From Mesorhizobium sp. YIM 152430 (GTDB lineage Bacteria > Pseudomonadota > Alphaproteobacteria > Rhizobiales > Rhizobiaceae), in NCBI RefSeq assembly GCF_029210365.1, contig NZ_JARGES010000015.1, positions 62,001-126,000 of the forward strand: a stretch of DNA of 64,000 nt. Direction: 5' to 3'. The first letter of the stretch is position 1; every line of letters begins with the position of its first letter. Below, piece after piece: positions 4,148-54,842 of this stretch. The translations under genes and the position numbers were made by a program. The notes under the pieces are model-generated. The model was given only the letters and a program-made list of their open reading frames with translations, did no database searches and was not told where the DNA came from.

Positions 4148-5593
4148 TCAGGCCGTGTTTACTTCGTCCGCAACAAGGGTCTGCGCTGCGGGAAACGTAT
4201 CGCGCAAGGCTGTCACGAGCCTTGATGAGCCGATGCTCTTCGACGACTTGATCATGACGACGTCGCCGGCGCGCACCATGCCCAGAAGCACCGGCTGGAG
4301 GTCGGCAACGCTATCGCGGTGCTCGACGCGCAAACTGTCGGGCAGCGCTTCGGCGAGCGCCTTCATCTCGGGGCCCGCAAGAAGCACGACGCCTGTTGCC
4401 TGCGGATCGATCGCCTCGGCGAGTTCCGCATGGAGTTTTCTGGAATGTTCGCCCAGTTCCAGCATGTCGCCAAGGACCGCGATCCGCCGGCCATGGCCGT
4501 TGATCGGCGCGGCCTGCAACACGTCCATCGCGGCGCGCACCGATGCCGGATTGGCGTTGTAGCTCTCGTCGATCAGGAGGAATTCGCCCTGGCGGTGGCG
4601 CAGGCGGTGGCGTGCGCCGCGCCCCTCCTCCGCCGAAAGGTCGGCCAGCGCATGAGCGACCTTCGCCATGTCCGCGCCCGCGAGATAGGAGGCGGCGAGA
4701 ACGGCGATGGCGTTCTGCACCATATGTCGGCCCGGCGCCCCGATCTTGGCGACGAGTTCCTCGCCCGCCATCTTGGCGGTGAAGGTCGAGCCTTCCGGCA
4801 TAAGCTTGGTCTTGACCAGCTTGAAGGTCGCGCGCGAATGCTCCCCGAAGCCCCAGACATTCTCGACGCCGGCTGCGCGCGCAGCCTTTTCGAGCTGCTT
4901 GAAGCGGGTATCGTCGCGATTGATCAGCGCGTGTCCGCCCGGCTCGACGCCTTCGAAAATCTCGGCCTTCGCCGTCGCGATCTCTTCCAGATTGCGGAAA
5001 TGGCCGAGATGCGCAGCGGCGATCATGGTGACGATGGCGATGTGCGGGCGCACCAGCTTGACCAAGGGACGGATCTCGTCCGGGTGGTTCATGCCGATCT
5101 CGAACACGGCATAATCGGTCTCCGCCGGCATCCGCGCAAGCGTCAGCGGCACGCCCCAGTGATTGTTGAACGACTTGTCGGAGGCGTGGACGCTGCCGAC
5201 CGACGACAGCGCCTTGCGCAGTGCTTCCTTGGTGCTCGTCTTGCCGGCCGAGCCGGTGACGGCGATGATCTTGCCCTTGGCGCGCGCGCGCGCGGCGATG
5301 CCCGCCTTCGACAGGGCTTCGAGCACGTCCGGGACGACGATCATCGGACCGTGCAGGCGGCCGAGGGCCGGCAGCTTCCCCTCGGAAACGACCAGCAGGC
5401 CGGCGCCGGCCTTGATCGCGGCGGTGGCAAAGTCATGCCCGTCGAACTGGTCGCCCTTGATGGCGAAGAAGGCGTCGCCTGGCTTCAATGTCCGGCTGTC
5501 GATGGAAATGCCGGTGATGCCTTCCGGCATCGTGCCGACGGGACGGCCAGCCATGGCAGCGACGAGATCGGCGGTGGTCCAAAGCAGGCTCAT
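4148..5593 (-). CDS. murF: MurF, UDP-MurNAc-tripeptide:D-Ala-D-Ala ligase
   Basis: MurF completes the cytoplasmic pentapeptide precursor by adding D-Ala-D-Ala. The product is 481 residues, with an N-terminal substrate domain ([17 protein letters not shown]), the P-loop GSAGKTST at residues 114-121, a central [11 protein letters not shown] motif and a C-terminal ligase domain with [11 protein letters not shown]. Its ATG overlaps the end of murE by four bases, and there is a 24-base gap to mraY. Confidence 0.97.
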
Positions 5594-43218: not shown

Positions 43219-44298
43219 TCAAGCCGCGTCGAAATCCAGCACCAGTCTTTTCGAGGTCGGGCGCGTCTGGCAGGCAAGCGTGAAGCCAGCTTCGATCTCC
43301 CAGGGCTGCAACGAATAGTTAACGGCCATCTCCGCCTCGCCTTCCACCACCCGGCAGCGGCAGGTGCAGCACATGCCATTGGCGCAGGAATAGGGAAGTT
43401 CGAGCCCCTTGCGGTGCGCCGCCTCGAGCACGGTCGCGTCCTGGTCGATCATGTCGAACGAGCGCCGCACGCCGTCGACCACCACCTCGATGGCGATGCC
43501 GTCCTGCGCGGCCTTTTCGGCCTCGGCCGAGCGCGGGCGCGGCTTCGGCGCATCGCCGGAAGGCGTGAAGCGCTCGAATCGCACCTTGTCGGCGTCGACG
43601 CCAAGCGCCGTCAGTTCCGCCGAAACGCTGTCGATCATCTCGCCGGGACCGCAAAGAAAGATGCCGTCCGCCGCCAGCGGGTCGATCGCGCCGCGCGCGG
43701 CAAGTTCGCGGATGCGCGCGCCATCGATGCGGCCGTTCAGAAGCTCGACGTCCTGCGTCTCGCGCGAGAGCACATGGATCAGGCTGAACCGGCGCATGTG
43801 CCGGTCCTTCAGGTCTTCGAGTTCTTCGAGGAACATGATCTGGTCGGAAGCGCGGTTGCCATAGATCAGCGTGACGGTGCTGTCCGGCTCATGGCCGAGC
43901 ACCGTGCGGGCGATGGAGAGCATCGGCGTGATGCCCGACCCGGCAGCGATCAGGATGTAGTCGTGGCGTTCGCCGACAAGCGAGGTAAAGCGGCCTTCCG
44001 GCGGCATGACGCGGATCACGTCGCCGATGGACAGCGTCTCATTGACGAAGGAGGAAAAGCGCCCATCCGCCACCCGCTTGACGCCGACGCGCAAGTGCGG
44101 GTCGCCGGGGGCGGAACAGATCGAATAGGACCGGCGCGCTTCCTTGCCGTCGATATCAGTCGAGAGGGTCAGATACTGGCCCGGCTTGAAGGCGAAGATT
44201 TCGCGCAATTCGTCGGGCACGTCGAAGGCGACGGCGACGGAATCGGGCGTCTGCCGCTCGATGCCGGAAACCTTCAATTCGTGAAAATGCGGCGCCAT
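43219..44298 (-). CDS. paaE: PaaE, phenylacetyl-CoA epoxidase reductase
   Basis: This 359-residue electron-transfer subunit passes NADPH electrons to the diiron PaaABC core. It has an FAD/ferredoxin-reductase module (YSICSAPGDPHLRVGVKRV, AAGSGITPMLSIARTVL) and a C-terminal 2Fe-2S ferredoxin domain with Cys in CANGMCCTCRCRV and a final Cys in FTLACQTR. It ends the paaABCDE operon. Confidence 0.95.
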   Translation of the reverse strand: MAPHFHELKVSGIERQTPDSVAVAFDVPDELREIFAFKPGQYLTLSTDIDGKEARRSYSICSAPGDPHLRVGVKRVADGRFSSFVNETLSIGDVIRVMPPEGRFTSLVGERHDYILIAAGSGITPMLSIARTVLGHEPDSTVTLIYGNRASDQIMFLEELEDLKDRHMRRFSLIHVLSRETQDVELLNGRIDGARIRELAARGAIDPLAADGIFLCGPGEMIDSVSAELTALGVDADKVRFERFTPSGDAPKPRPRSAEAEKAAQDGIAIEVVVDGVRRSFDMIDQDATVLEAAHRKGLELPYSCANGMCCTCRCRVVEGEAEMAVNYSLQPWEIEAGFTLACQTRPTSKRLVLDFDAA

Positions 44299-44305
44299 CG
44301 GGACC

Positions 44306-44803
44306 TCAGATGCATTTGAAATAGTCGAACGGTTCGCGGCACGACGTGCAGCGATAAAGCGCCTTGCAGGCGGTCGAGCCGAATTCGGAGACGCGTGTCG
44401 TCTCGCTCGAGCCGCATTGCGGGCAGGCGACGACAGTTTCGCCGAAAAGCGAGCGGATCGAGTTCGACCCGTTCACCGGCGGCGCGATACCATAGGCGCT
44501 GAGTTTCTCGCGGCCTTCCTCGGTGATCCAGTCCGTCGTCCAGGCCGGCGAGATCACCCGCTCGACGCGGGCATCGAATCCGGCATCGCGAAGTGCGGCT
44601 TCGACGGCGAGTTCGATCGCCAGCACGGCCGGGCAGCCCGAATAGGTCGGCGTGACCCTGGCGACGGCAACGCCATCGATGATTTCGACGGAGCGCAGGA
44701 TGCCGAGATCGGCGACGGTCACGCAGGGAACTTCGGGATCGAGCACGGCGGCCGCCGCTGCATAGGCGCGGCGCTGGTCGAGGGTGGTGTCGACAGCAAG
44801 CAT
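44306..44803 (-). CDS. paaD: PaaD, phenylacetyl-CoA epoxidase iron-sulfur assembly factor
   Basis: The 165-residue protein has a MIP18/DUF59-like domain with the active Cys in PTYSGCPAV. Its C-terminal zinc-ribbon-like CPQCGSSETTRVSEFGSTAC region continues through CTSCREPFDYF. PaaD helps mature the epoxidase in E. coli. The ATG at 44803 is chosen; a GTG at 44815 would overlap paaC. Confidence 0.9.
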   Translation of the reverse strand: MLAVDTTLDQRRAYAAAAAVLDPEVPCVTVADLGILRSVEIIDGVAVARVTPTYSGCPAVLAIELAVEAALRDAGFDARVERVISPAWTTDWITEEGREKLSAYGIAPPVNGSNSIRSLFGETVVACPQCGSSETTRVSEFGSTACKALYRCTSCREPFDYFKCI

Positions 44804-44808
44804 CGCGC

Positions 44809-45564
44809 CTACCACACCGCCCCCGGAAACGTCCGCTGCATGTATTGCAGGTCGGCCAGCAGGAAGCCCATCGCCTCGCCGTGCCTCCCTTCGCGCCCGC
44901 CGCGCTGGGCGAACGGCGCGGTCGGCATGTCCAGGAACGCCTCGGAAAAGATCGTCGCGATCGTCCGGTCGAAGGATTGGCGCAGCGCTGCCGGCTCCGG
45001 CGCGATGCCTGCGTCCACCATCGTCCGCGTCACCGCGTCGGCATCGAACAGTTCATCGACATAAGGCGCCAGTTCCTCCACCGCCTGCTTCATGCGCGCC
45101 GCGCTTTCCTCGGTGCCGTCGCCAAGCCGGATCACCCATTCGCCCGCATGGCGGATGTGGTAGGCGACTTCCTTGACGGCCTTGGCGGCGATGCCGGCCA
45201 GCGTCTCGTCCTTCGATGTCGCCATGGCGCGCCACAACGGTTCCATGAAGGCGGCGAAATAAAGCTGACGCAGCATGGTGTGTGCGAAGTCGCCATTCGG
45301 CCGCTCGACCATCAGGCAGTTGGTGTATTCCCGCTCGCGCCGCAGATAGGCGAAGTCATCTTCCGTGCGGCCCTTGCCTTCGATCTCGGCGGCATACTGG
45401 TAGAGCGCGCGCGCCTGTCCGATGAGGTCCAGCGCCATGTTCGGCATGGCGAGGTCCTCTTCCAGCATCGGCGCATGGCCGCACCATTCCGACAGGCGAT
45501 GGCCGAGGATCAGGTGGTCGTCGGCGAGCCGGACGACGAAGGCGAGAAGCGCGTCGTTCGCCAT
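44809..45564 (-). CDS. paaC: PaaC, structural subunit of phenylacetyl-CoA epoxidase
   Basis: This 251-residue helical ferritin-like protein forms a catalytic core with PaaA. It has LADDHLILGHRLSEWCGHAP, EDLAMPNMALDLIGQARALY and HIRHAGEWVIRLGDGTEES. PaaC has the ferritin-like fold but does not carry the active diiron site. Its start overlaps the paaB stop. Length is as usual. Confidence 0.95.
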   Translation of the reverse strand: MANDALLAFVVRLADDHLILGHRLSEWCGHAPMLEEDLAMPNMALDLIGQARALYQYAAEIEGKGRTEDDFAYLRREREYTNCLMVERPNGDFAHTMLRQLYFAAFMEPLWRAMATSKDETLAGIAAKAVKEVAYHIRHAGEWVIRLGDGTEESAARMKQAVEELAPYVDELFDADAVTRTMVDAGIAPEPAALRQSFDRTIATIFSEAFLDMPTAPFAQRGGREGRHGEAMGFLLADLQYMQRTFPGAVW

Positions 45565-45851
45565 CACATATGCCCCACTTCGTCGGGAATCTTGTAAAAG
45601 GTCGGATGACGATAGACCTTGGAGGCGGCCGGCTCGAAATTCTCGTCCTTGTGCTCGGGATCGGAGGCGGTGATCGCCGCCGACGGCACGACCCAGATCG
45701 AGACGCCCTCGCCGCGCCGGGTGTAGACATCGCGCGCCGCGTTCAGCGCCATCACCTCGTCGGCCGCGTGGACCGAGCCGCAATGCTTGTGCGACAGGCC
45801 GTTGCGCGGCCGGATGAAGACTTCCCAGAGCGGGATTTCGTTCTTCGCCAT
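45564..45851 (-). CDS. paaB: PaaB, phenylacetyl-CoA epoxidase subunit
   Basis: This 95-residue subunit bridges the PaaAC dimers. It contains the conserved PLWEVFIRPRNGLSHKHCGS, VHAADEVMALNAARDVYTRR and GEGVSIWVVPS segments. The ATG at 45851 follows paaA by five bases. The frame extends upstream into paaA but without protein-like character. Confidence 0.96.
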   Translation of the reverse strand: MAKNEIPLWEVFIRPRNGLSHKHCGSVHAADEVMALNAARDVYTRRGEGVSIWVVPSAAITASDPEHKDENFEPAASKVYRHPTFYKIPDEVGHM

Positions 45852-45856
45852 ATCTC

Positions 45857-46852
45857 TCACTCCGCTGCGATCTTGGCCGCCGCGCGGCGGGCCTTGCGCT
45901 TTTCGGCATGGGCGAGCGCGGCTTCGCGCACCCATTCGCCGTCTTCCCAAGCCTTCTTCCGCGCTGCGATGCGCTCCTTGTTCATCGGGCCGCCACCCTT
46001 GACCACGCGCCAGAACTCGTCCCAGTCGATCGCGCCGAAATCATAGTGTCCGCGCTCCTCGTTCCATTTCAGGTCCGGGTCGGGCAGCGTCAGGCCGATG
46101 AAGTCGGCTTGCGGAACGGTGGAATCGACGAATTGCTGGCGCAGTTCGTCATTGGTGAAACGCTTGATCTTCCAGGCCATCGACTGGTCGCCATGCTGGC
46201 TGTCGCCATCATGCGGCCCGAACATCATCAGGGACGGCCACCACCAGCGGTTCAGCGCGTCCTGCGCCAGTTCCTTTTGCTCGGGCGTACCTTGCGCCAG
46301 CGTCATCATGATCTCGTAGCCCTGGCGCTGGTGGAAGCTTTCCTCCTTGCACACGCGGATCATCGCGCGCGCATAGGGCCCGTAGGAACAGCGGCAAAGC
46401 GGAATCTGGTTCATGATCGCCGCGCCGTCGACCAGCCAGCCGATGGCGCCGATATCGGCCCAGGTCAGCGTCGGATAGTTGAAGATCGAGGAATATTTCG
46501 CTTTTCCCGACAGAAGCTCCTCGGTCATCTGCTCGCGGGAAACGCCCAGCGTTTCGGCGGCGGAATAGAGATAGAGGCCGTGCCCGCCCTCGTCCTGCAC
46601 CTTGGCGAGCAGCGCCGCCTTGCGCCTCAGCGACGGCGCGCGGGTGATCCAGTTGCCCTCCGGCAGCATTCCGACGATCTCGGAATGGGCGTGCTGGCCG
46701 ATCTGGCGGATCAGCGTGCGCCGATAACCTTCCGGCATCGGATCGTTGGGTTCGATCTTTTCCTCGGCGTCGATGCGCGCCTGAAAGGCGGCGAGGAAGG
46801 CTTCGTCCTCGGTCGTCTCGGTTTTCGCGCCGATCAGGCCCTGGCTGTACAT
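45857..46852 (-). CDS. paaA: PaaA, catalytic diiron subunit of phenylacetyl-CoA epoxidase
   Basis: PaaA epoxidises the phenylacetyl-CoA ring, the first committed step of aerobic phenylacetate degradation. The 331-residue subunit has the carboxylate/His iron ligands in [13 protein letters not shown] and [13 protein letters not shown], and an earlier [15 protein letters not shown]. The strong GGAGGAATTGCC ribosome-binding site marks the ATG at 46852. It leads the paaABCDE operon on the minus strand. Confidence 0.97.
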
Positions 46853-46888
46853 GGCAATTCCTCCGTGATCCGTTACGATCCGATTTCC

Positions 46889-46935
46889 AATATGTAACAA
46901 AAAATCGGCATGACGGCAAGTTTTCGTAACATATT
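46889..46935. promoter_or_regulatory. Inverted repeat in the paaA/thioesterase divergent region
   Basis: AATATGTAACAAAA and TTTTCGTAACATATT form an imperfect inverted repeat (13 of 15 matched positions) with an 18-base spacer, between the divergent starts of paaA and the thioesterase gene. A further GTTAC copy lies at 46872. The pattern suggests a regulator site controlling both genes. It does not match the PaaR-like palindrome found near paaI. Confidence 0.45.
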
Positions 46936-46949
46936 TTCCAGGAGGGGTA

Positions 46950-47369
46950 ATGACGGCTTTTGGCATCGAGGACGCGGAGCATCTGATGCGCACGATGTTC
47001 GCGCCGTGGGTCGGCGAATTGAACCTGAAGGCGATCGCCTTCGACGCGGCCGGCGGCGACTTTATGATGCCCGCAAACCCGCGACTCGTCCATGGCGGCG
47101 GCGTCGTCTGCGGTCAGGCTACGGCGTCAGCCGCCGATACGGTGGCCGTCATGACGCTGTCCGCGCTGAATGGCAGGTTCCGTCTCTGCACGACGGTCGA
47201 TCTGACGACGCACTTCATCCGGCCGCTCAAGCCCGGCAACGTCGACATCCGCGTCGACGTGCTCTCGAACGGAAAACGCATGGCCTATGTTCGCATCGAG
47301 ATGCGCGCCAGCGGCGACGCGCGCATCGCCGTCAGCGCCACCGGAGCCTTCGCCTACATGGCGGATTGA
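46950..47369 (+). CDS. PaaI-like hotdog thioesterase
   Basis: This 139-residue hotdog-fold protein has [18 protein letters not shown], a PaaI_thioesterase-type core (the usual HGG motif), and [16 protein letters not shown]. It probably hydrolyses acyl-CoA thioesters. GGAGGGG precedes the ATG at 46950. Its 3' end overlaps the end of the convergent HPr-kinase-like gene by 16 bases. It is separate from paaI at 53060. Confidence 0.83.
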
Positions 47370-48541
47370 TCGTCGCGCTGGATGAAGCCCGCCGCATCGA
47401 GTTCCGCGAATAGCGCGCGCGTGTCGCGCGAGATTCGCGCGGCCGGCTCGTCCGGAAACGCCTCGCACAAGATCGCCTCAGCCTCGCGCGCGGAAATCGG
47501 ATCTGCAAGCAGGTTCCAGATGCCGGTGCCGATCGCATTGAGATGGTAGATTCCCGCGCCATCCGCATCGGCAAGGAAAAGATCGCCCTCGACCTGACGC
47601 AGTTCGATGCCGTCGGCCTGCCGGAACGGGCGATCGGCGCTGAAGCCGTCTGCGGCGTCGCCCGCCACGGCCTCCGTCGCCGCGCTCCGGTAAACGCTGA
47701 GATCGTCGGTCGCGATCGGCCATCGCCGGAAGCGGCTTTCCAGAAGCGACACCCCATCTTCCAGATCGCTGTAGGTGAGCTTGAGGCAGGGCAGCCCGGC
47801 GACGAGCAAGTGCAGCCGGTCGAGTTGCCGCGCAGCCTGGTCGTCGCCGGTGAAATTCTGGCGGATCAGCGTCTGCAAGGTCTCGCTGTCGGTGGCCCGC
47901 GAAAAGCGCGCTTGTATTTCATCCTGTCGATCGAGAAGCACGACTGCGCCGATTTCGCGTGATGTGCCACGCGGTGCGAGTGCGCCGCAATCGGCATCAA
48001 GATAGAGATAGCGGCCGTCCGATGCGGCCGTATTGTCGGCCACGAACCGGCCGAAGGAGGCGCTGGCCCCCACCGGCAGCGGCAGGCGCAGGCGCGGCGC
48101 GATGCCAAGCGCGATTCCCTGCCGGTCGTCGTCGCTCAGGGGCAGGATGTCGTCTCCAAGAACGGTATGGCCTGCGCTCGCGAGCCGGGCCGTCAGCGTG
48201 CTCTTTCCGGCATGGGAATGGCTGGGAAAAATCACCAGCCGCCCGCCGAACTCCACCGCTGCGCAATGCAGCCAGAGCCGGTTCGGTGCCTCCGCGATGG
48301 CCGCGTCCGCGACGTCGACGATCAGGCCGCAGACCGCCTCGACGGCACTTGCCGCGACCGGCTCGCGGCCTGGCGATTCCAGCAGATACCGGCCACCAGC
48401 CGGCACGACGCGGCTGACCGGCTCGCCGGACGCCACCTCCGTCACCGACCAGTCGAAGGCCGCGGCCCGCAACGCCTGTTGAAACTCGACAGCGGCGGGG
48501 ATATCGACGACGATTTCGGTCTCTTCGAAACGAACGAGCAT
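47354..48541 (-). CDS. HPr-kinase-like domain fused to a PqqD domain
   Basis: The 395-residue cytoplasmic protein joins two modules. Residues about 90-290 hold an HPr-serine-kinase-like P-loop fold: SHSHAGKST (Walker A, residues 107-115) and LGDDILPL (residues 128-135). Residues about 308-392 are a PqqD domain (YHLNAIGTGIWNLL at 332-345 and ALFAELDAAGFI). PqqD domains bind leader peptides of RiPP precursors; HprK-like domains phosphorylate or bind proteins. The ATG at 48541 has GAGG upstream; a GTG at 48544 is also possible. It is the last gene of the S8 peptidase-peptide-kinase unit. Confidence 0.75.
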   Translation of the reverse strand: MLVRFEETEIVVDIPAAVEFQQALRAAAFDWSVTEVASGEPVSRVVPAGGRYLLESPGREPVAASAVEAVCGLIVDVADAAIAEAPNRLWLHCAAVEFGGRLVIFPSHSHAGKSTLTARLASAGHTVLGDDILPLSDDDRQGIALGIAPRLRLPLPVGASASFGRFVADNTAASDGRYLYLDADCGALAPRGTSREIGAVVLLDRQDEIQARFSRATDSETLQTLIRQNFTGDDQAARQLDRLHLLVAGLPCLKLTYSDLEDGVSLLESRFRRWPIATDDLSVYRSAATEAVAGDAADGFSADRPFRQADGIELRQVEGDLFLADADGAGIYHLNAIGTGIWNLLADPISAREAEAILCEAFPDEPAARISRDTRALFAELDAAGFIQRDDQSAM

Positions 48542-48587
48542 CACATCCTCGATAGACGGGCCGGCAGGGCGCCGGCCCGCCTATCCG

Positions 48588-48800
48588 TTATCGGCTGAAG
48601 GAGCGGCGTGAGAAGCTGCGCCGCGAAAAGCTGCGGCGGTCACCACGGATCGGACGGCGCGGACGGCCGCGACCGCTGAAGCTCGACGCCTTGGCCTCGC
48701 CGATTTGCAGCAGGACCGGCGCTGCGTAGATTGCGCCTGCGGCAAGCCCGAGTTTCGCCAGCATGGCGCGGCGGGAAAGCTTTGCGTCGGATCGGTCCAT
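48588..48800 (-). CDS. 70-residue precursor-like peptide with twin-arginine-type leader and RSFSR repeats
   Basis: The peptide begins MDRSDAKLSRRAMLAKLGLA and continues with a hydrophobic stretch (LGLAAGAIYAAPVL) and an A-x-A cleavage site (AKA, residues 36-38), a Tat-like leader. The mature part (residues 39-70) has 12 Arg and only one Asp, and ends in three tandem RSFSR pentads (56-70). It is preceded by AGGAGA and lies between the protease and the kinase/PqqD genes on the same strand. It is probably the substrate of those two proteins. No family is recognised. Confidence 0.75.
   Translation of the reverse strand: MDRSDAKLSRRAMLAKLGLAAGAIYAAPVLLQIGEAKASSFSGRGRPRRPIRGDRRSFSRRSFSRRSFSR
48591..48635 (-). 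repeat. Three tandem 15-base units encoding RSFSR
   Basis: The three coding units end the small peptide gene. They are identical in protein but differ at several third-codon positions (for example Ser as TCG, TCA and AGC; Phe as TTT and TTC). They are thus not a recent slippage product. Confidence 0.85.
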
Positions 48801-48886
48801 GGTCGTTCTCCTTTTCGTTCCATCCCTTCGATACATGGGCAGAACGACCCTGATGCCATTTTATTCCATGACGATTTCGTCAGAAA

Positions 48887-50158
48887 CTAACCGCCGGCCG
48901 GAATGACCGGCGCAGCGCCGGCGGCATTGCAGATGTCGGGCGCCTGCACGAGACCCCAGCCGAAGGTCGCGTCGCGCCCCGGATCGCCCAGATCGACCAC
49001 GCCTTGCGCAAGCGCATCGATGAGGTCCTTGGAATTCGCGTCCGGCGTCGAAGCACGCGCCGCCGCCAACGCCGCCGAGACGAAGGGCGCGGCATAGGAT
49101 GTGCCTGAGCGATAGCGCCCGCCGCTGACCGAGGCGGCGGTCCACAGCTGGACGCCGGGTGCTGCGAAATCGACGTGATCGCCGGCATTGGCGCGGCGAT
49201 AGACCCGGCTCCGGCTGTCGACGGCCGTCACCGCGACCACGCCCTCATAGGCGGCGGGGAAGAGCGGATCGGCGTTCGGCCCGGCATTGCCGGCCGCCGC
49301 GACGAGGATCATGTCCTTGGCGAGCGCCGCATCGACGATGGTCTTCAGCACCGCATTGTCCGGCCCGGTGAAGCTCAGATTGACGACGCCAATGTCGCGC
49401 GTGACCATCTCGTCCAGCGCACGCACGACGTCGAACGTGTCGGCCGCGTCGTTGCCGCTCGCATCCTTGTGGAATGCCTCGGCGGCGACGATCCGCGCGC
49501 CCGAAAGCAGCCCCGGCGTGCGCGTATCCGCCCGGCCAGCCATCAGGATGGCGACCGCGGTGCCGTGAACCGCGCCGCCCGGCTGGCGCCCGTCGGCGAT
49601 GACCGGAAACGTCTCGATCGGCACGTCGGCCAGCGCGGCGTGGTCGCGATTGACGCCGGTGTCGACCATGCCGATCACCGTGTCGGCTGGGCAGCCATGG
49701 GCGGCGCTTTTCCATCCGATCAGGTCGAAGGCGGCGCAGCTCTCTTCCCCGCACGGCATTTCCTCGGGCCGGTAGATCGCATTGACGTCGAAGATCGCCG
49801 CCGGCACCAGCCCGGCGATCTGCTGGCGCGCCTGTTCGATGGTGAGGTTCGCAGGCACCACGAAGCGCGCGAGTTCGGATGCCGTCGCGGCGATGCTCGC
49901 CTGCGAGAGAAGGTCGTAACCTTCAGCCGAGATGGCGGCGATGGCTGCGGCATCGGGCGCGCTGACGACGATTTCAGGGCGGGGCGGCGGCGGGGCGGCG
50001 CGCCGTGCCGGTCGCGCACGGCGAACCGGTGCGCTGAACGACACGGACGATGCGTGCGCCCGTCCCAGCGACATCAGGACCGGCGTCGAATAGACGGCCC
50101 CGGCCGCAAGGCCCAGGCGCATCAGCGTCCGCCGGCGGCTCGGGTCGAATTCGGTCAT
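48887..50158 (-). CDS. Exported subtilisin-family (S8) serine protease
   Basis: The 423-residue protein has a twin-arginine-type leader (residues about 7-38, with LGLAAGAVYSTPVL) that matches the leader of the neighbouring 70-residue peptide, a Pro/Arg-rich linker, an inhibitor-like pro-region (residues about 62-125) and an S8 domain. The catalytic triad is Asp166 (GMVDTGVN), His198 (VHGTAVA) and Ser354 (SGTSYAAPF), with oxyanion Asn291. It is expected to be active outside the cytoplasm. The ATG at 50158 has GGGAG upstream. It is the first gene of the unit. Confidence 0.9.
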   Translation of the reverse strand: MTEFDPSRRRTLMRLGLAAGAVYSTPVLMSLGRAHASSVSFSAPVRRARPARRAAPPPPRPEIVVSAPDAAAIAAISAEGYDLLSQASIAATASELARFVVPANLTIEQARQQIAGLVPAAIFDVNAIYRPEEMPCGEESCAAFDLIGWKSAAHGCPADTVIGMVDTGVNRDHAALADVPIETFPVIADGRQPGGAVHGTAVAILMAGRADTRTPGLLSGARIVAAEAFHKDASGNDAADTFDVVRALDEMVTRDIGVVNLSFTGPDNAVLKTIVDAALAKDMILVAAAGNAGPNADPLFPAAYEGVVAVTAVDSRSRVYRRANAGDHVDFAAPGVQLWTAASVSGGRYRSGTSYAAPFVSAALAAARASTPDANSKDLIDALAQGVVDLGDPGRDATFGWGLVQAPDICNAAGAAPVIPAGG

Positions 50159-50191
50159 GGCTGTGCTCCCAGGGTTCACGGCCCGCAAACG

Positions 50192-50220
50192 GATATAGCG
50201 CAGCTTTATTCCCGCGTCAG
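50192..50220 (-). promoter_or_regulatory. Candidate promoter of the S8 protease operon
   Basis: On the minus strand CTGACG (50220-50215) and TATATC (50197-50192) are spaced 17 bases. The -35 element overlaps the paaX stop codon. Transcription would start about 25-30 bases before the protease ATG. Confidence 0.5.
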
Positions 50221-51119
50221 GACACGAGGTCTTGAGGGGCCGGCAGGGACGCGCCGCCCGCAAAGCGCTGCGGCCCTTGCGGCGACGGCAGCCCGGCATC
50301 GTCGAGCCAGTCTTCGCTTGGCGCGTAGAGCGCGCCGTAGATTTGCCGGACTCCTCCCCGTGCCTCCTCGCCGGGCCAGTCGGCCGGCAGGAGATCGATC
50401 GGCAGGCCGGGGTCGCGCAGGACGATGCGCCGCCAGTTGTGGATGACGAGGATGCGCGCCGCCATCGCGTCGACGCCCGAAAGCCGCGCCCCTCCGTCAA
50501 GCGCGGCTTGCAGCGGCATCAGTGTCGCTATCAGCGTGCGATACGCCTCGGCGATCTCGCGCGAGGGCCAGAGTTCATGAAACGCTTCGGGGTGCTCGGC
50601 GCTTTCGCCATGCACGATCAGCGCGCCGGCAAGCGCATCGTCGAGCCCGATCGCGCCTTCGGTTTCAGGCCGCAGATAGACGCCGCCATTGATCCGCACG
50701 AAACCGAGCCCCGTCGCATCGGCCAGAACATCCGTCTCGCCATTGGGCGGCGCGATCGCCACCGTCCAGGCGCCGTTCCAGGCCGGCGGTCCCCTGGAAT
50801 AGATGCGCCTTGTCGCCAGATCGAAGGCGTGCCGGCCTTCCTCGGCAAGCCGGTAGTGCGAGTTGCGCCCTTCCCGCTCGCGGATGACCCAGTGGTCGGA
50901 GGCAAGGCGCGACATCGCGGTGCGCAACGCTCCGGGCTCGATGCGCAACCGGCCCATCACGTTCTGGAGCACGCCGAGCGGCACCTGTCCGCCGCGCGGA
51001 ACCACCGCGTCGCCGAACATGGTGATGACGAGCGACCAGACCCGCAGCCGGCCCCTGGCATGGAGCCGGTCGATCAGGCTTTCGAGCGCCTTTTGCGCCG
51101 GATTGTGATGTACGCCCAT
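50217..51119 (-). CDS. paaX: PaaX, phenylacetyl-CoA-responsive repressor
   Basis: PaaX represses paa genes and is released by phenylacetyl-CoA. The 300-residue protein has the winged-helix N-terminus (LRVWSLVITMFGDAVVPRGG, then LRTAMSRLASDHWVIREREG) and the PaaX C-terminal domain (GAWTVAIAPPNGE, then WPSREIAEAYRTLIA). The ATG at 51119 lacks a strong ribosome-binding site. It follows paaR on the minus strand, so it is likely co-transcribed with paaI-paaK-paaR. Confidence 0.88.
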   Translation of the reverse strand: MGVHHNPAQKALESLIDRLHARGRLRVWSLVITMFGDAVVPRGGQVPLGVLQNVMGRLRIEPGALRTAMSRLASDHWVIREREGRNSHYRLAEEGRHAFDLATRRIYSRGPPAWNGAWTVAIAPPNGETDVLADATGLGFVRINGGVYLRPETEGAIGLDDALAGALIVHGESAEHPEAFHELWPSREIAEAYRTLIATLMPLQAALDGGARLSGVDAMAARILVIHNWRRIVLRDPGLPIDLLPADWPGEEARGGVRQIYGALYAPSEDWLDDAGLPSPQGPQRFAGGASLPAPQDLVS

Positions 51120-51159
51120 CTTTTCGCATTCGCACGGCGCAACGCCGCCTGCAAGGATG

Positions 51160-51753
51160 TCAGAGCGATTTGACGCCGCCGACGAGAATTCGCGTGGCAA
51201 GCCTTGCATAGTCGGCGCGGCTGACCGGCCCGCCCTCGCGGAACCACATATAGAACCAGTTGAGCATCCCGAAGAGACTCATCGTCACCGGCTTGATCAG
51301 CGGCCGACCATCGAAAAGCGCAGGGTGAAGCGTGCGGATCGCTTCGGCGAAGATCGCGACGAGTTCGCGTTCGAGCGCTTTCAGCCTCTCCTGGTCCTCG
51401 GCGGGCAGGAGCCGCAGCCCGGTTATCTGAACCTTGTGCTCGGCATCGGCATCCCGATAGGCTTCGAGAAGCGCCGAAACCAGGGCTTCGAGACGCCGCT
51501 CGGGATCGAGTTGCGGTTCGTCCGCCTCGCTGACGGCCGTGACGAGATCCTGCAAATGGCTCTCGATGATGTCGAAGAGCAGCGCCTCTTTTGACGCATA
51601 ATAGTGGTAGAGCAGCGCCTTGGAGACCCCGCATTCGGTGGCAAGCTGCGCCATCGAGGCGCGGTCGTAGCCGTCGCGCGCAAAGACGATCGCCGCATGG
51701 TGCAGCATCGCCTGGCGCTTGTCGTCATAGTCCTTGGCGCGGGTGCGGGCCAT
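51160..51753 (-). CDS. paaR: PaaR-like TetR-family regulator
   Basis: This 197-residue TetR-family protein has the HTH in ASMAQLATECGVSKALLYHYY and a C-terminal ligand domain with MSLFGMLNWFYMWFREGGPV. It overlaps the paaK stop. TetR-type PaaR in other proteobacteria senses phenylacetyl-CoA and binds ACCG...CGGT palindromes; such a palindrome lies at 53539-53552 upstream of paaI. The gene name is assigned from context. Confidence 0.8.
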   Translation of the reverse strand: MARTRAKDYDDKRQAMLHHAAIVFARDGYDRASMAQLATECGVSKALLYHYYASKEALLFDIIESHLQDLVTAVSEADEPQLDPERRLEALVSALLEAYRDADAEHKVQITGLRLLPAEDQERLKALERELVAIFAEAIRTLHPALFDGRPLIKPVTMSLFGMLNWFYMWFREGGPVSRADYARLATRILVGGVKSL

Positions 51754-53063
51754 CAGTTCTTCGGCCGGTTGTCGACGATGCGCTGCGCCTTGCCCTGGCT
51801 GCGCGCGATCGTCTCCGGCGCGCCGACATCGACGCGAACGGTCACGCCGACGATGTCCTTGATGAGGTCGCGCAGGCTCGCGGCATTCGCCTTGCGCGCG
51901 TCGTCAGAAGCTGCTCCCGCCGTCGCCTCCACATGGACGACCATCTCGTCCATCCGCCCCTCGCGCACCAGCTCGACCTGGAAATGCGGGCTGAGGCCCG
52001 GCACTTTCAAGATCTGCTCCTCGATCTGCGTCGGAAACACGTTGACACCGCGCAGGATCATCATGTCGTCGGAGCGGCCGGTGATCTTTTCCATGCGCCG
52101 CATCGAGCGCGCCGTGCCGGGCAAAAGCCGCGTCAGGTCGCGTGTGCGGTAGCGGATGATCGGGAAGGCTTCCTTGGTCAGCGAGGTGAAGGCGAGCTCG
52201 CCCTTCTCGCCATCGGCGACCGGCTGGCCGGTCTGCGGATCGATGATCTCGGGATAGAAATGATCCTCCCAGATGTGCAGCCCGTCCTTGCTCTCGACGC
52301 ATTCGTTGGCGACGCCCGGACCCATCACTTCCGACAGCCCGTAAATGTCGACCGCGTGCATGTCGAACGCTTCCTCGATCTCCGAGCGCATGGCGTTCGT
52401 CCAGGGCTCCGCACCGAAGATGCCGACCTGCAACGGGCTCTTCCGGGGGTCCAACCCCTGCGCGCGGTATTCATCGAGGATCGACAGCATGTAGGAGGGC
52501 GTGACCATGATGGTCGAGGCCCTGAAATCCTCGATCAGCGTCACCTGCCGTGCCGTCATGCCGCCCGAGACCGGCACCACCGTGCAGCCGAGCCGTTCGG
52601 CGCCGTAATGCGCGCCGAGCCCGCCGGTGAAGAGCCCGTAGCCATAGGCGATGTGGACGATGTCGCCCGGTCGCGTGCCCGACGCGCGCATCGACCGTGC
52701 GACGCATTCCGCCCAGATTTCGATGTCGTTCTTCGTATAGCCGACGACAGTCGGCTTGCCGGTCGTGCCCGACGAAGCATGGATGCGTGCCACCTTCTCG
52801 CGCGGGACGGCGAACATGCCGAACGGATAATTGTCGCGTAGATCCGACTTCACCGTGAAAGGAAAACGGGCGAGGTCGGCAAGGTCGTTCAAATCATACG
52901 GATGGACGCCCGCCGCATCGAAGCTCGTCCTGTAGAACGGCACGTTGTCATAGGCGTGCTTCAGCGACCATTTCAGACGGGTGAGTTGAAGCGCCGCAAT
53001 CTCGTCGCGCGAGGCGATCTCGATCGGGTCGAGGTCCTCGCGGCGTGGCGTCAGATCCTTCAT
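51753..53063 (-). CDS. paaK: PaaK, phenylacetate-CoA ligase
   Basis: PaaK activates phenylacetate to phenylacetyl-CoA with ATP. The 436-residue enzyme has the AMP-binding P-loop IHASSGTTGKPTVVGYT, the IYGLSEVMGPGV motif and the C-terminal hinge TGRSDDMMILRGVNVFPTQIE. It overlaps paaI upstream and paaR downstream. Confidence 0.96.
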   Translation of the reverse strand: MKDLTPRREDLDPIEIASRDEIAALQLTRLKWSLKHAYDNVPFYRTSFDAAGVHPYDLNDLADLARFPFTVKSDLRDNYPFGMFAVPREKVARIHASSGTTGKPTVVGYTKNDIEIWAECVARSMRASGTRPGDIVHIAYGYGLFTGGLGAHYGAERLGCTVVPVSGGMTARQVTLIEDFRASTIMVTPSYMLSILDEYRAQGLDPRKSPLQVGIFGAEPWTNAMRSEIEEAFDMHAVDIYGLSEVMGPGVANECVESKDGLHIWEDHFYPEIIDPQTGQPVADGEKGELAFTSLTKEAFPIIRYRTRDLTRLLPGTARSMRRMEKITGRSDDMMILRGVNVFPTQIEEQILKVPGLSPHFQVELVREGRMDEMVVHVEATAGAASDDARKANAASLRDLIKDIVGVTVRVDVGAPETIARSQGKAQRIVDNRPKN

Positions 53064-53500
53064 TGTCCATCCTCCCCGAAATGCCTGCCCTCGATGGCGC
53101 GCGAGGCGCCGCGGAACTCGGCGATCACCTTGCCGGTATCGTCGGTGACGCGAACGTCGTAGAGCCCGCTGCGCCCCGACCGCGTCACCTCATGCGCCTT
53201 CGCCGTCAGCCGCGCGCCGAGCCGGCCCGGCCGCAGGAAGCTGATCGTATTGTGCTGCGCGACGACGAGTTGATTGTAGGAATTGCAGGCGAAGGCGAAG
53301 GCGCTGTCGGCCAGCGTGAAGATGTAGCCGCCATGGCAGATGTCGTGGCCATTGGTGTGATGCCGCTCGACCGTGAAGGAGGTCGTCGCCGTCCCCGGAC
53401 CCACAGCGTCGAGGCTCATGCCGAGCCATTTGGAGGCGTCATCGCGCGCCCACATCGCCTCCGCGCTCTTGCGCGCGATCTCTTCAGGGCTCAGCGTCAT
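53060..53500 (-). CDS. paaI: PaaI, phenylacetyl-CoA-pathway thioesterase
   Basis: PaaI is a hotdog thioesterase that removes dead-end hydroxyphenylacetyl-CoA products. The 146-residue protein has ICHGGYIFTLADSAFAFACNS (the HGG and Asp motif) and VAQHNTISFLRPGRLG. It starts the paaI-paaK-paaR-paaX unit. Confidence 0.93.
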   Translation of the reverse strand: MTLSPEEIARKSAEAMWARDDASKWLGMSLDAVGPGTATTSFTVERHHTNGHDICHGGYIFTLADSAFAFACNSYNQLVVAQHNTISFLRPGRLGARLTAKAHEVTRSGRSGLYDVRVTDDTGKVIAEFRGASRAIEGRHFGEDGQ

Positions 53501-53530
53501 CGTTCCTCCCCGCCTCTCCTAGAGGAAAGC

Positions 53531-53559
53531 TTGCATAAACCGGCCGGACGGTCAATAAT
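53531..53559 (+). promoter_or_regulatory. P450 promoter with PaaR-like operator
   Basis: TTGCAT (53531-53536) and AATAAT (53554-53559) are spaced 17 bases. Within that spacer lies the palindrome ACCGGCCGGACGGT (53539-53552), which fits the ACCGnCCGGnCGGT form associated with TetR-type PaaR. The site also lies 39 bases upstream of the divergent paaI start, so it could repress both directions. Confidence 0.6.
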
Positions 53560-53597
53560 ACATCCGTCGATGCAGGAGGCGTCGCGAGGAGGATCGA

Positions 53598-54842
53598 TTG
53601 GCGGACCAACATTCGCAGACGCAGGCGCACGACGGCGATCAAGCACTCGCGCGCGATTTCGATATCGGCGCAGTGACGAGAGCCTTTGCCGACGACCCCT
53701 TCCCCACCTATCGCGCGCTTCTCGAGCACGCGCCCGTCAAGCGCTTTGCGGACGGATCTGTGATGCTGTCGCGCTATGCCGATCTCGATCGCGTCTACCG
53801 CGACACCAGGGCGTTCTCGTCCGACAAAAAGGTCGAGTTCAAGCCCAAGTTCGGCGACACCCCGCTTTACGAGCATCACACGACGAGCCTCGTCTTCAAC
53901 GATCCGCCGCTTCATACGCGCGTGCGCAAGATCATGATGGGCGCGCTGACGCCGCGCGCCATTGCCGCGATGGAACCCGGCCTTATCGCGCTCGTCGACG
54001 GCCTGCTCGATCGGATGGCGGAGAAGGGAAAGGTCGACCTGATCGAGGATTTCGCCTCGGCGATTCCGGTCGAGGTGATCGGCAATCTCTTCGTCATGCC
54101 GCACGAGGAACGCGGGCCGCTGCGCGAATGGTCGCTGGCGATCCTCGGCGCGCTGGAGCCGACGCTGACGGCTGAGCAGCGGGATTGGGGCAACCGCTCC
54201 GTCACCGAATTCAAGGCTTATCTTGCAGACCTCGCCGCACGCCGCCGCGCCAATCCCGGCGATCCCGCGACCGACGTGCTCACCCGCCTCATCAACGGCA
54301 ATGAAGGCGAGCAGTTGTCCCACACCGAACTGCTGCAAAACTGCATCTTCATTTTGAATGCCGGCCACGAGACGACGACGAATCTGATTGGCAACGCGCT
54401 CTACGAACTCCTTGAATGGCCTGAAGAAAAAGCGCGGCTAGAAGCCGATCCGTCGATGATCGACACCGCCATCGACGAGTTCCTGCGCTTCCAGTCGCCC
54501 AACCAGCTCGGCAACCGGCTGGCGGTCGAGGACGTCGTGTTCGACGGCGAAGCGATTTCCGCCGGAACCCGCATCCATTTGTGCATCGGCGCCGCCAACC
54601 GCGACCCGCGCCAATACGACCGCCCCGACACGCTCGACCTCTCCCGCAAACCCAACCGTCACCTCGCTTTTGCCCAGGGCCCGCATCTGTGCGCCGGCTT
54701 CTCGCTCGCCCGCATGGAAGGCCGCATCGCGATTGCGCGGTTCCTGAAGCGTTTTCCGGATTATCGGCTGGGTGGTGAGGCGCGGCGGACAGGGCGCGTA
54801 AGGTTTCGCGGGTTTGCGACGCTGCCGGCGAAAGTGAACTGA
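53598..54842 (+). CDS. Cytochrome P450 (CYP), bacterial class I
   Basis: The 414-residue soluble monooxygenase has the I-helix AGHETT (residues 255-260), the ExxR pair (Glu294/Arg297) and the heme Cys365 in FAQGPHLCAGFSLARME. It starts at TTG 53598 after GAGGAGG. It lies divergent to paaI and eleven bases before paaZ, which suggests an aromatic or phenylacetate-related substrate. No ferredoxin gene is beside it. Confidence 0.9.
   Translation: MADQHSQTQAHDGDQALARDFDIGAVTRAFADDPFPTYRALLEHAPVKRFADGSVMLSRYADLDRVYRDTRAFSSDKKVEFKPKFGDTPLYEHHTTSLVFNDPPLHTRVRKIMMGALTPRAIAAMEPGLIALVDGLLDRMAEKGKVDLIEDFASAIPVEVIGNLFVMPHEERGPLREWSLAILGALEPTLTAEQRDWGNRSVTEFKAYLADLAARRRANPGDPATDVLTRLINGNEGEQLSHTELLQNCIFILNAGHETTTNLIGNALYELLEWPEEKARLEADPSMIDTAIDEFLRFQSPNQLGNRLAVEDVVFDGEAISAGTRIHLCIGAANRDPRQYDRPDTLDLSRKPNRHLAFAQGPHLCAGFSLARMEGRIAIARFLKRFPDYRLGGEARRTGRVRFRGFATLPAKVN

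Follow-up and report, generated by a model that had tools for sequence, protein, structure and literature searches.

A probable RRE-guided serine kinase system for exported peptides in Mesorhizobium, a candidate Tat-borne relative of the linear polyphosphorylated peptides of Bacillota

Background

The Linear Polyphosphorylated Peptides (LPPs) described by Popov et al. 2026 (PMC13381572) are made from short precursors by an HprK-like kinase, LppK, which phosphorylates serine of a precursor that depends on a separate PqqD-family recognition element (RRE) for ribosomally synthesized and post-translationally modified peptides (RiPPs). The LPP clusters also encode a SipW-like signal peptidase, an MsbA-like transporter and a nucleoside triphosphate (NTP) transferase, but no cyclase. 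In the paeninodin-type lasso peptides (PMC9266682), the kinases PadeK, ThcoK and PsmK likewise phosphorylate serine of RRE-dependent precursors, in this case the C-terminal residue, and the lasso rings are formed by the B2 and C enzymes. The motif [Y/W]xxPx[LVIFA] is recognized by discrete lasso RREs and is partly common to LPP leaders, and the LPP authors consider both LPPs and paeninodins to be restricted to Bacillota (PMC13381572). The current study concerns three genes of the alphaproteobacterium Mesorhizobium sp. YIM 152430 that encode an S8 protease, a 70-residue peptide and a protein in which an HprK-like kinase is fused to a PqqD domain. The genes lie in a stretch of 64,000 nucleotides, referred to here as the window (contig NZ_JARGES010000015.1, positions 62,001 to 126,000).

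The system probably works like LPP, lacking several LPP features and having, in addition, a leader for twin-arginine translocation (Tat) and a fused RRE. Common to both are the PqqD-family RRE, the short precursors without a cyclase, a conserved precursor N-terminus with YxxPx[LV] followed by variable C-termini and, putatively, the HprK-like kinase. Unlike in LPP, the RRE is joined to the kinase, the leader is of the Tat type and an S8 protease is present in some loci. Only the YxxPx[LV] portion of the LPP leader YxxPxVLxHQxIxFETxxS is found, the remainder being a Tat-type signal. A Pfam search of the 10 proteins encoded on either side revealed neither a SipW-like signal peptidase nor an MsbA-like transporter, and the NTP transferase family PF14907 had no match in the Mesorhizobium genome at E ≤ 0.01. 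The likeness to paeninodin-type systems is that the kinase would act on serine of an RRE-dependent precursor; however, the window peptide ends in arginine and no cyclase or B2 protease was among the 10 flanking proteins.

A preliminary description of the window had proposed a previously undescribed peptide-maturation system. Taken as a system without relatives, that claim does not hold, since peptide phosphorylation by an HprK-type kinase together with an RRE is known from experiments on the LPP and paeninodin systems of Bacillota (PMC13381572, PMC9266682). Searches of the open-access literature, which took in neither subscription papers nor supplements, turned up no publication that describes HprK-PqqD fusions with Tat/YxxP peptides, and the word "kinase" is absent from the main texts of the RRE-Finder papers PMC7470986 and PMC12710340.

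Pairing of peptide and kinase

One genome from each of 84,980 species was included in a pattern-based scan. The 33 loci obtained belong to Hyphomicrobiales and other Alphaproteobacteria, to Halomonas and to uncultured Gammaproteobacteria. Twenty-five of these loci were combined with 13 from genome-sample matches to give 38 non-repeated loci; the others (L063-L065, L071, L076, L087, L092 and L094) were repeats of contigs already included. The 13 were taken from 19 match rows in 11 genomes, from which a fragment (G003:C15), the second half of G108, the broken G074 and three weak G082 rows were dropped.

In 33 of the 38 loci, the peptide gene immediately preceded the kinase gene, in the same orientation and at a distance of approximately 20-254 nt; among the 34 loci whose upstream DNA exceeded 1 kb, it did so in 33. 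The exceptions were L084, L086 and L095, with less than 300 bp of upstream DNA, L048, with 2 bp upstream and a peptide downstream, and L060, where an apparent frameshift left the leader still visible. The preliminary description would have been refuted by a lack of such neighbors in other genomes, but the peptide was found next to kinase-PqqD genes in many of them; the complete order S8-peptide-kinase was also present in three genomes of the same genus (G001-G003) and on a plasmid of Shinella. In the neighbor clustering, no family besides the kinase was common to anything like as many loci. A conserved third partner was rejected, the clusters next in size, those of ABC transporters and short-chain dehydrogenases, appearing generic.

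The kinase and leader also occurred together on a genome scale. Among 385 genomes of the class, the kinase profile (E ≤ 1e-25) was found in 35 and the leader profile (E ≤ 1e-8) in 35, with 33 genomes, from 17 families, common to both. Among 398 genomes of the phylum, the kinase (E ≤ 1e-20) was found in eight, and the same eight were the best leader genomes; eight further leader genomes had matches at 2e-5 or weaker. Three of the eight kinase genomes (G000, G148 and G278) were also in the class sample. In many of these genomes, the kinase and PqqD matched separately, and the peptides can be tens of kb away or in tandem.

Several considerations weaken the class comparison: 1) the strict cut-offs were picked after the lists were seen, and at the original cut-offs of the searches 33 of 39 leader genomes were among 59 kinase genomes, 2) two genomes (G233 and G494) had the leader only and two (G305 and G431) the kinase profile only, the G431 match being confined to the PqqD part, 3) scoring was confined to the few best candidates of each genome and 4) related genomes are not independent of each other in the counts.

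Leader and tail of the peptide

The leaders gave the consensus RRRxLAxLGLxAxAAYAAPxLxxLxQAxAS. In the 33 upstream peptides, YxxPx[LV] was located inside the Tat hydrophobic core, with the tyrosine 14 or 15 residues after the twin arginine in 31 leaders, and the residue two positions after the proline was leucine in 32 and valine in one. The sequence features of a Tat substrate, namely the twin arginine and the LGL and [AS]xA columns, were present, and the Mesorhizobium genome encodes TatC (E 6.3e-70). The Tat signal profile PF10518 matched neither the window peptide, at E ≤ 10, nor the window S8 protease. The control set comprised the 24 PF10518 matches of the same genome, many with poor E-values, of which 23 were readable. 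None of the 23 carried the motif at 14-15 residues; three had [YW]xxP within 60 aa, one of them 9-22 residues after the twin arginine (at +21).

Peptides found by similarity alone also had YxxP, except L053, L057 and L062. L053 (G110) has a Tat leader without the tyrosine in a genome without a kinase match, and L057 and L062 are likely to be chance peptide matches. A YxxP peptide at a contig end in G015 (L052) was found in a genome with no kinase match. Two points weaken the YxxP evidence. The peptide finder for the 33 loci demanded YxxP, so that the tyrosine and proline were fixed by construction, and the motif is in the core of a signal peptide, where the sequence is also constrained by export.

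The tails were of many kinds, including RSFSR, SYSRP, SRGSRG, SKSRSR, GSGGG and SVSSP. Serine accounted for 11-40% (median 18%) of the residues in all 33 tails, the remaining residues varying (G, R, H, P), and threonine for 1.3% overall. A conserved C-terminus, PSRW, was shared by 10 of the 11 Halomonas peptides (L072, L078-L081, L083, L088, L090, L091 and L093), and that of L089 was PPRW. With cysteine absent from all 33 tails and, as the preliminary description had noted, no radical SAM, YcaO, lanthionine or lasso cyclase gene among the 10 neighbors scanned (43219-54842), lanthipeptide, sactipeptide and lasso chemistry was rejected.

Threonine was frequent in one of the 33 tails (L074), and some cores in the other split-gene relatives were rich in proline, glycine and cysteine (PSPCPPPG-like, or with FPTPC or TPCPPP), with few serines and at times with threonine. 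Repeated serine is consequently not universal, and the window type represents only part of the variety within the wider family. The leader parser used for the split genes gave the wrong open reading frame (ORF) in about 8 of 30 loci and no count was taken from it.

The kinase-PqqD fusion protein

The PqqD domain call of the preliminary description was upheld by the Pfam profile PF05402 (E 4.2e-9, 37 bits versus a cut-off of 23.4). The profile search with this part of the protein matched TbiB1, PbaB1, TfuB1 and LppB, and the closest profiles were lasso and LPP RREs solved with their leaders (5v1u/5v1v, 9x90, 6jx3 and 9x8z), the match with LppB (9x8z) having an E-value of 1.8e-6. In LppB, Asp70 hydrogen-bonds the leader tyrosine, and Asn33 and Phe74 hold the proline region (PMC13381572). 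In the profile alignment, Asp70 corresponded to Asp374, which was invariant in all 34 kinase sequences, while Asn33 corresponded to Asn336 (Asn or Asp) and Phe74 to Leu378 (at least 90% in the 11-sequence alignment); this residue matching used an offset of 18 between the chain and paper numbering, deduced from the spacing.

The predicted structure was confident (mean predicted local distance difference test score 92.8) and supported a fold of the HprK/phosphoenolpyruvate carboxykinase (PEPCK) type. PEPCK entries filled the VIA-align fold list, and the PqqD part was judged by its sequence profile together with the 5v1v/5v1u fold rows. His93, the AGKS sequence at 112-115, Asp132 and Arg151/153 were, like Asp374, invariant in the 34 sequences.

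The HprK call of the preliminary description did not reach the family thresholds, so the failure of the domain calls in profile searches, which that description gave as a ground for refutation, came about in part. The kinase part scored 12 bits against a cut-off of 33.3 with Pfam PF07475 and 45.3 bits (E 5.6e-12) against 200 with NCBIfam TIGR04352, so that all curated HprK cut-offs were missed, and the first glycine of the usual P-loop motif was not retained. Both results count against its assignment as a kinase. TIGR04352 (HprK_rel_A) was nevertheless the best NCBIfam match, and the HPr-rel-A system resembles the present one in pairing an HprK-like kinase with a PqqD-family protein. The second family of that system, TIGR04353 (PqqD_rel_X), gave no match with the window protein at E ≤ 1, and a split relative (L198) scored 20.8 against a cut-off of 35. 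Membership of HPr-rel-A was rejected on these scores.

In L050 and L198, the kinase and PqqD parts were encoded by separate adjoining genes, and in many class genomes each part had a match of its own, a sign that the two may work as a pair. Six plasmid homologues in PLSDB were annotated 'PqqD family protein'.

Proposed mechanism

Considered together, the observations suggest that the locus probably encodes a serine kinase that is guided by an RRE to exported peptides, and the system would be a relative, with Tat-type leaders, of the Bacillota LPP systems. In the cytoplasm, the PqqD/RRE of the fusion protein would bind YxxPxL within the Tat signal of the peptide, and of the window-type S8 protease, and the fused HprK-type kinase would then phosphorylate the tail serines. 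Release by the RRE would expose the Tat signal, the phosphopeptide would be exported by Tat and a signal peptidase would cut after AxA. Where present, the S8 protease may trim the peptide or itself outside the cell. The phosphorylation chemistry is proposed chiefly because PadeK, ThcoK and PsmK (PMC9266682) and LppK (PMC13381572) phosphorylate serine of RRE-dependent precursors. The interpretation offered in the preliminary description is thereby partly supported: the leader docking by PqqD, serine modification and Tat export that it envisaged are strengthened by the YxxP motif, the invariant tyrosine-fixing aspartate, the co-occurrence and the serine in every tail, although the steps themselves are predicted from sequence.

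A more specific scheme, which we put forward tentatively, is a kinase-coupled Tat quality control. The RRE would read YxxP and hold the precursors, both the serine-repeat peptide and the leader-bearing S8 protease, until the Ser/Arg or Ser/Gly tail had been phosphorylated, and export would follow only then. What reached the outside would be a low-complexity peptide with multiple phosphates, a kind of surface material, with a make-up comparable to that of SR-repeat proteins or silaffins. We know of no description of such bacterial surface material. Tat proofreading chaperones of the TorD/DmsD type bind the Tat signal until the cargo is modified; their fold is unrelated to that of the RRE, and the binder proposed here is an RRE fused to the modifying enzyme.

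It is also conceivable, though unlikely, that the kinase modifies the peptide but that the phosphate primes a further step, such as the nucleotidyl or sugar transfer discussed for PsmN and LppN, so that the final product is not a phosphopeptide. In G179 and G257, NTP_transf_5 (PF14907) genes were found close to the kinase-PqqD pair, G335 and G500 had related ORFs, and the NTP transferase belongs to the core of the LPP clusters. The failure of PF14907 to match in the Mesorhizobium genome and the outcome of the neighbor clustering, in which the kinase had no widely shared companion, both speak against such a step. That the HprK-like domain is an inactive or small-molecule enzyme, with only the RRE mattering, for instance as a Tat-signal chaperone, would accord with the weak HprK family scores and with the best fold matches, which were PEP carboxykinases, small-molecule enzymes of the same fold, but is improbable in view of the invariant kinase residues, the presence of HprK-HPr complexes among the fold matches and the action of related kinases in a similar gene setting on peptides.

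If an RRE-guided serine kinase is indeed encoded here, RRE-guided peptide phosphorylation would extend from Bacillota to Alpha- and Gammaproteobacteria, kinases annotated merely as 'PqqD family' would gain a concrete substrate and a Tat export signal could double as a RiPP leader. The function of the HprK/PqqD gene pair becomes testable with two or three small genes.

The S8 protease

The window protease matched the Peptidase_S8 profile with an E-value of 1.6e-26. Its leader, of the same Tat/YxxP type as that of the peptide, was the third leader match in the genome, and is an addition to the three same-strand genes of the preliminary description, which were confirmed and lie on the minus strand. 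With a threshold of E < 1e-20 and flanks of unequal length, an S8 gene was found beside 10 of the 38 kinase loci: four of the window type, three of the four paralogues, Chelativorans, Aquamicrobium and the metagenome-assembled genome ECS31B3. The paralogue locus of G001 had only a short, weak S8 piece, and none of the 11 Halomonas loci, with flanks of differing length, had an S8 gene. The protease as core enzyme was rejected on this count. It is accessory, and the maturation outside the cell envisaged for it in the preliminary description is possible.

Two plasmids outside the 38-locus set also carried the protease. The Shinella plasmid has the S8-peptide-kinase set in the order of the window, preceded by divergent sigma and putative anti-sigma genes, and its S8 protein resembles the window type in carrying this leader and a Ser/Arg-rich stretch; on the Paracoccus plasmid, the S8 gene adjoins the kinase. 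In the latter (L232, ~4270-4670), there is no annotation for the peptide gene, whose reading frame appears to break after YAAP. In G028, a leader-bearing S8 gene was on a different contig from the kinase.

Because the window-type protease shares the peptide leader, it is probably a second client of the fusion protein. Judged by their leaders, the window-type and Shinella proteases are likely to be second clients besides possible maturases. The paralogue-type proteases (L003, L047 and L060), which have no YxxP leader, are not, and they detract from a general link between the S8 protease and the system. The shared leader would also suit an arrangement in which the fusion protein mainly regulates or chaperones S8 export while the small peptide acts as a decoy or competes for the RRE. 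The S8 genes adjoining the kinase in the genus of the window and on both plasmids, as well as the extracytoplasmic function (ECF) sigma and putative anti-sigma genes that adjoin several copies, are in its favor; however, the peptide-kinase pairing persists where the S8 gene is missing and the paralogue-type protease lacks the leader, and we regard this arrangement as having little probability.

Operon and genomic setting

The three genes form an operon (window 47354-50158) within a paa cluster, with paaX on one side and paaA on the other (Table 1). An AGGAG sequence is upstream of the ATG of the peptide gene, and the kinase gene has an alternative GTG start one codon before its ATG. The intergenic gaps are 86 nt between the S8 and peptide genes and 43-46 nt between the peptide and kinase genes. 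The 10 neighbors scanned were paa genes, a TetR regulator, two thioesterases and a P450. One thioesterase gene runs on the strand opposite to the kinase gene, and the 3' ends of the two overlap; the link of this thioesterase gene to the kinase/peptide system is doubtful.

Table 1. Features of the operon and its flanks (window coordinates)
Feature	Position	Strand	Details and basis
S8 (subtilisin-like) protease; Tat/YxxP leader (YSTPVL), then short Ser/Arg-rich stretch	48887..50158	(-)	423 aa; Peptidase_S8 profile
Precursor peptide, 70 aa	48588..48800	(-)	Tat-type leader (YAAPVL in hydrophobic core, AKA cleavage motif), Ser/Arg tail ending in three SFSR repeats
Peptide leader region used in leader profile	48675..48797	(-)	Leader alignment
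HprK/PEPCK-fold kinase (~residues 1-285) fused to C-terminal PqqD/RRE (~residues 305-390)	47354..48541	(-)	395 aa from ATG; profiles, model
paaX, bordering the interval found short in G004	50217..51125	(-)	Pfam scan, similarity
paaA, opposite flank	45857..46852	(-)	Pfam scan, similarity
Thioesterase-family gene, also inside the paaX-paaA interval	46950..47369	(+)	Pfam scan

In G004, of the same genus, the paaX and paaA ORFs, named by similarity to the window genes, were 78 bp apart, and this genome had no kinase match at E ≤ 1e-5 and no peptide match at E ≤ 0.01. The interval is thus filled in one lineage and empty in another. A second, diverged set was found on contig C1 of the Mesorhizobium genome, with a kinase-PqqD protein 33% identical to that of the window, a 136-aa Gly/Ser-rich peptide with a like leader, an ECF sigma factor, a putative anti-sigma factor and another S8 protease that has a different N-terminus without YxxP.

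Several other genes were observed near the peptides and the split kinase/PqqD pairs. In G201 (L182, 7870-8443 and 8551-14484), a 1977-aa RTX-repeat protein is encoded next to two tandem YxxP Tat peptides. The split pair in G417 adjoins ABC and HlyD genes of type I secretion, and a related HlyD gene was near the kinase/PqqD pair in G148; the loci concerned are L186 (4129-7808) and L183 (10092-13868). G088 encodes a YxxP Tat peptide with a C-terminal PepSY-like domain, just under the cut-off, beside two-component-like genes (L048, 2688-3464), and two more YxxP Tat peptides on other contigs. An MmcB-like gene was near split-type peptides in four genomes (L182, 14736-15179; L184, 7213-7677; L188, 7210-7767; and G494, L200), and a PfkB/cytidylyltransferase (HldE-like) gene was near those of G417, G419, G494 and G500; one member of each group was scanned with Pfam.

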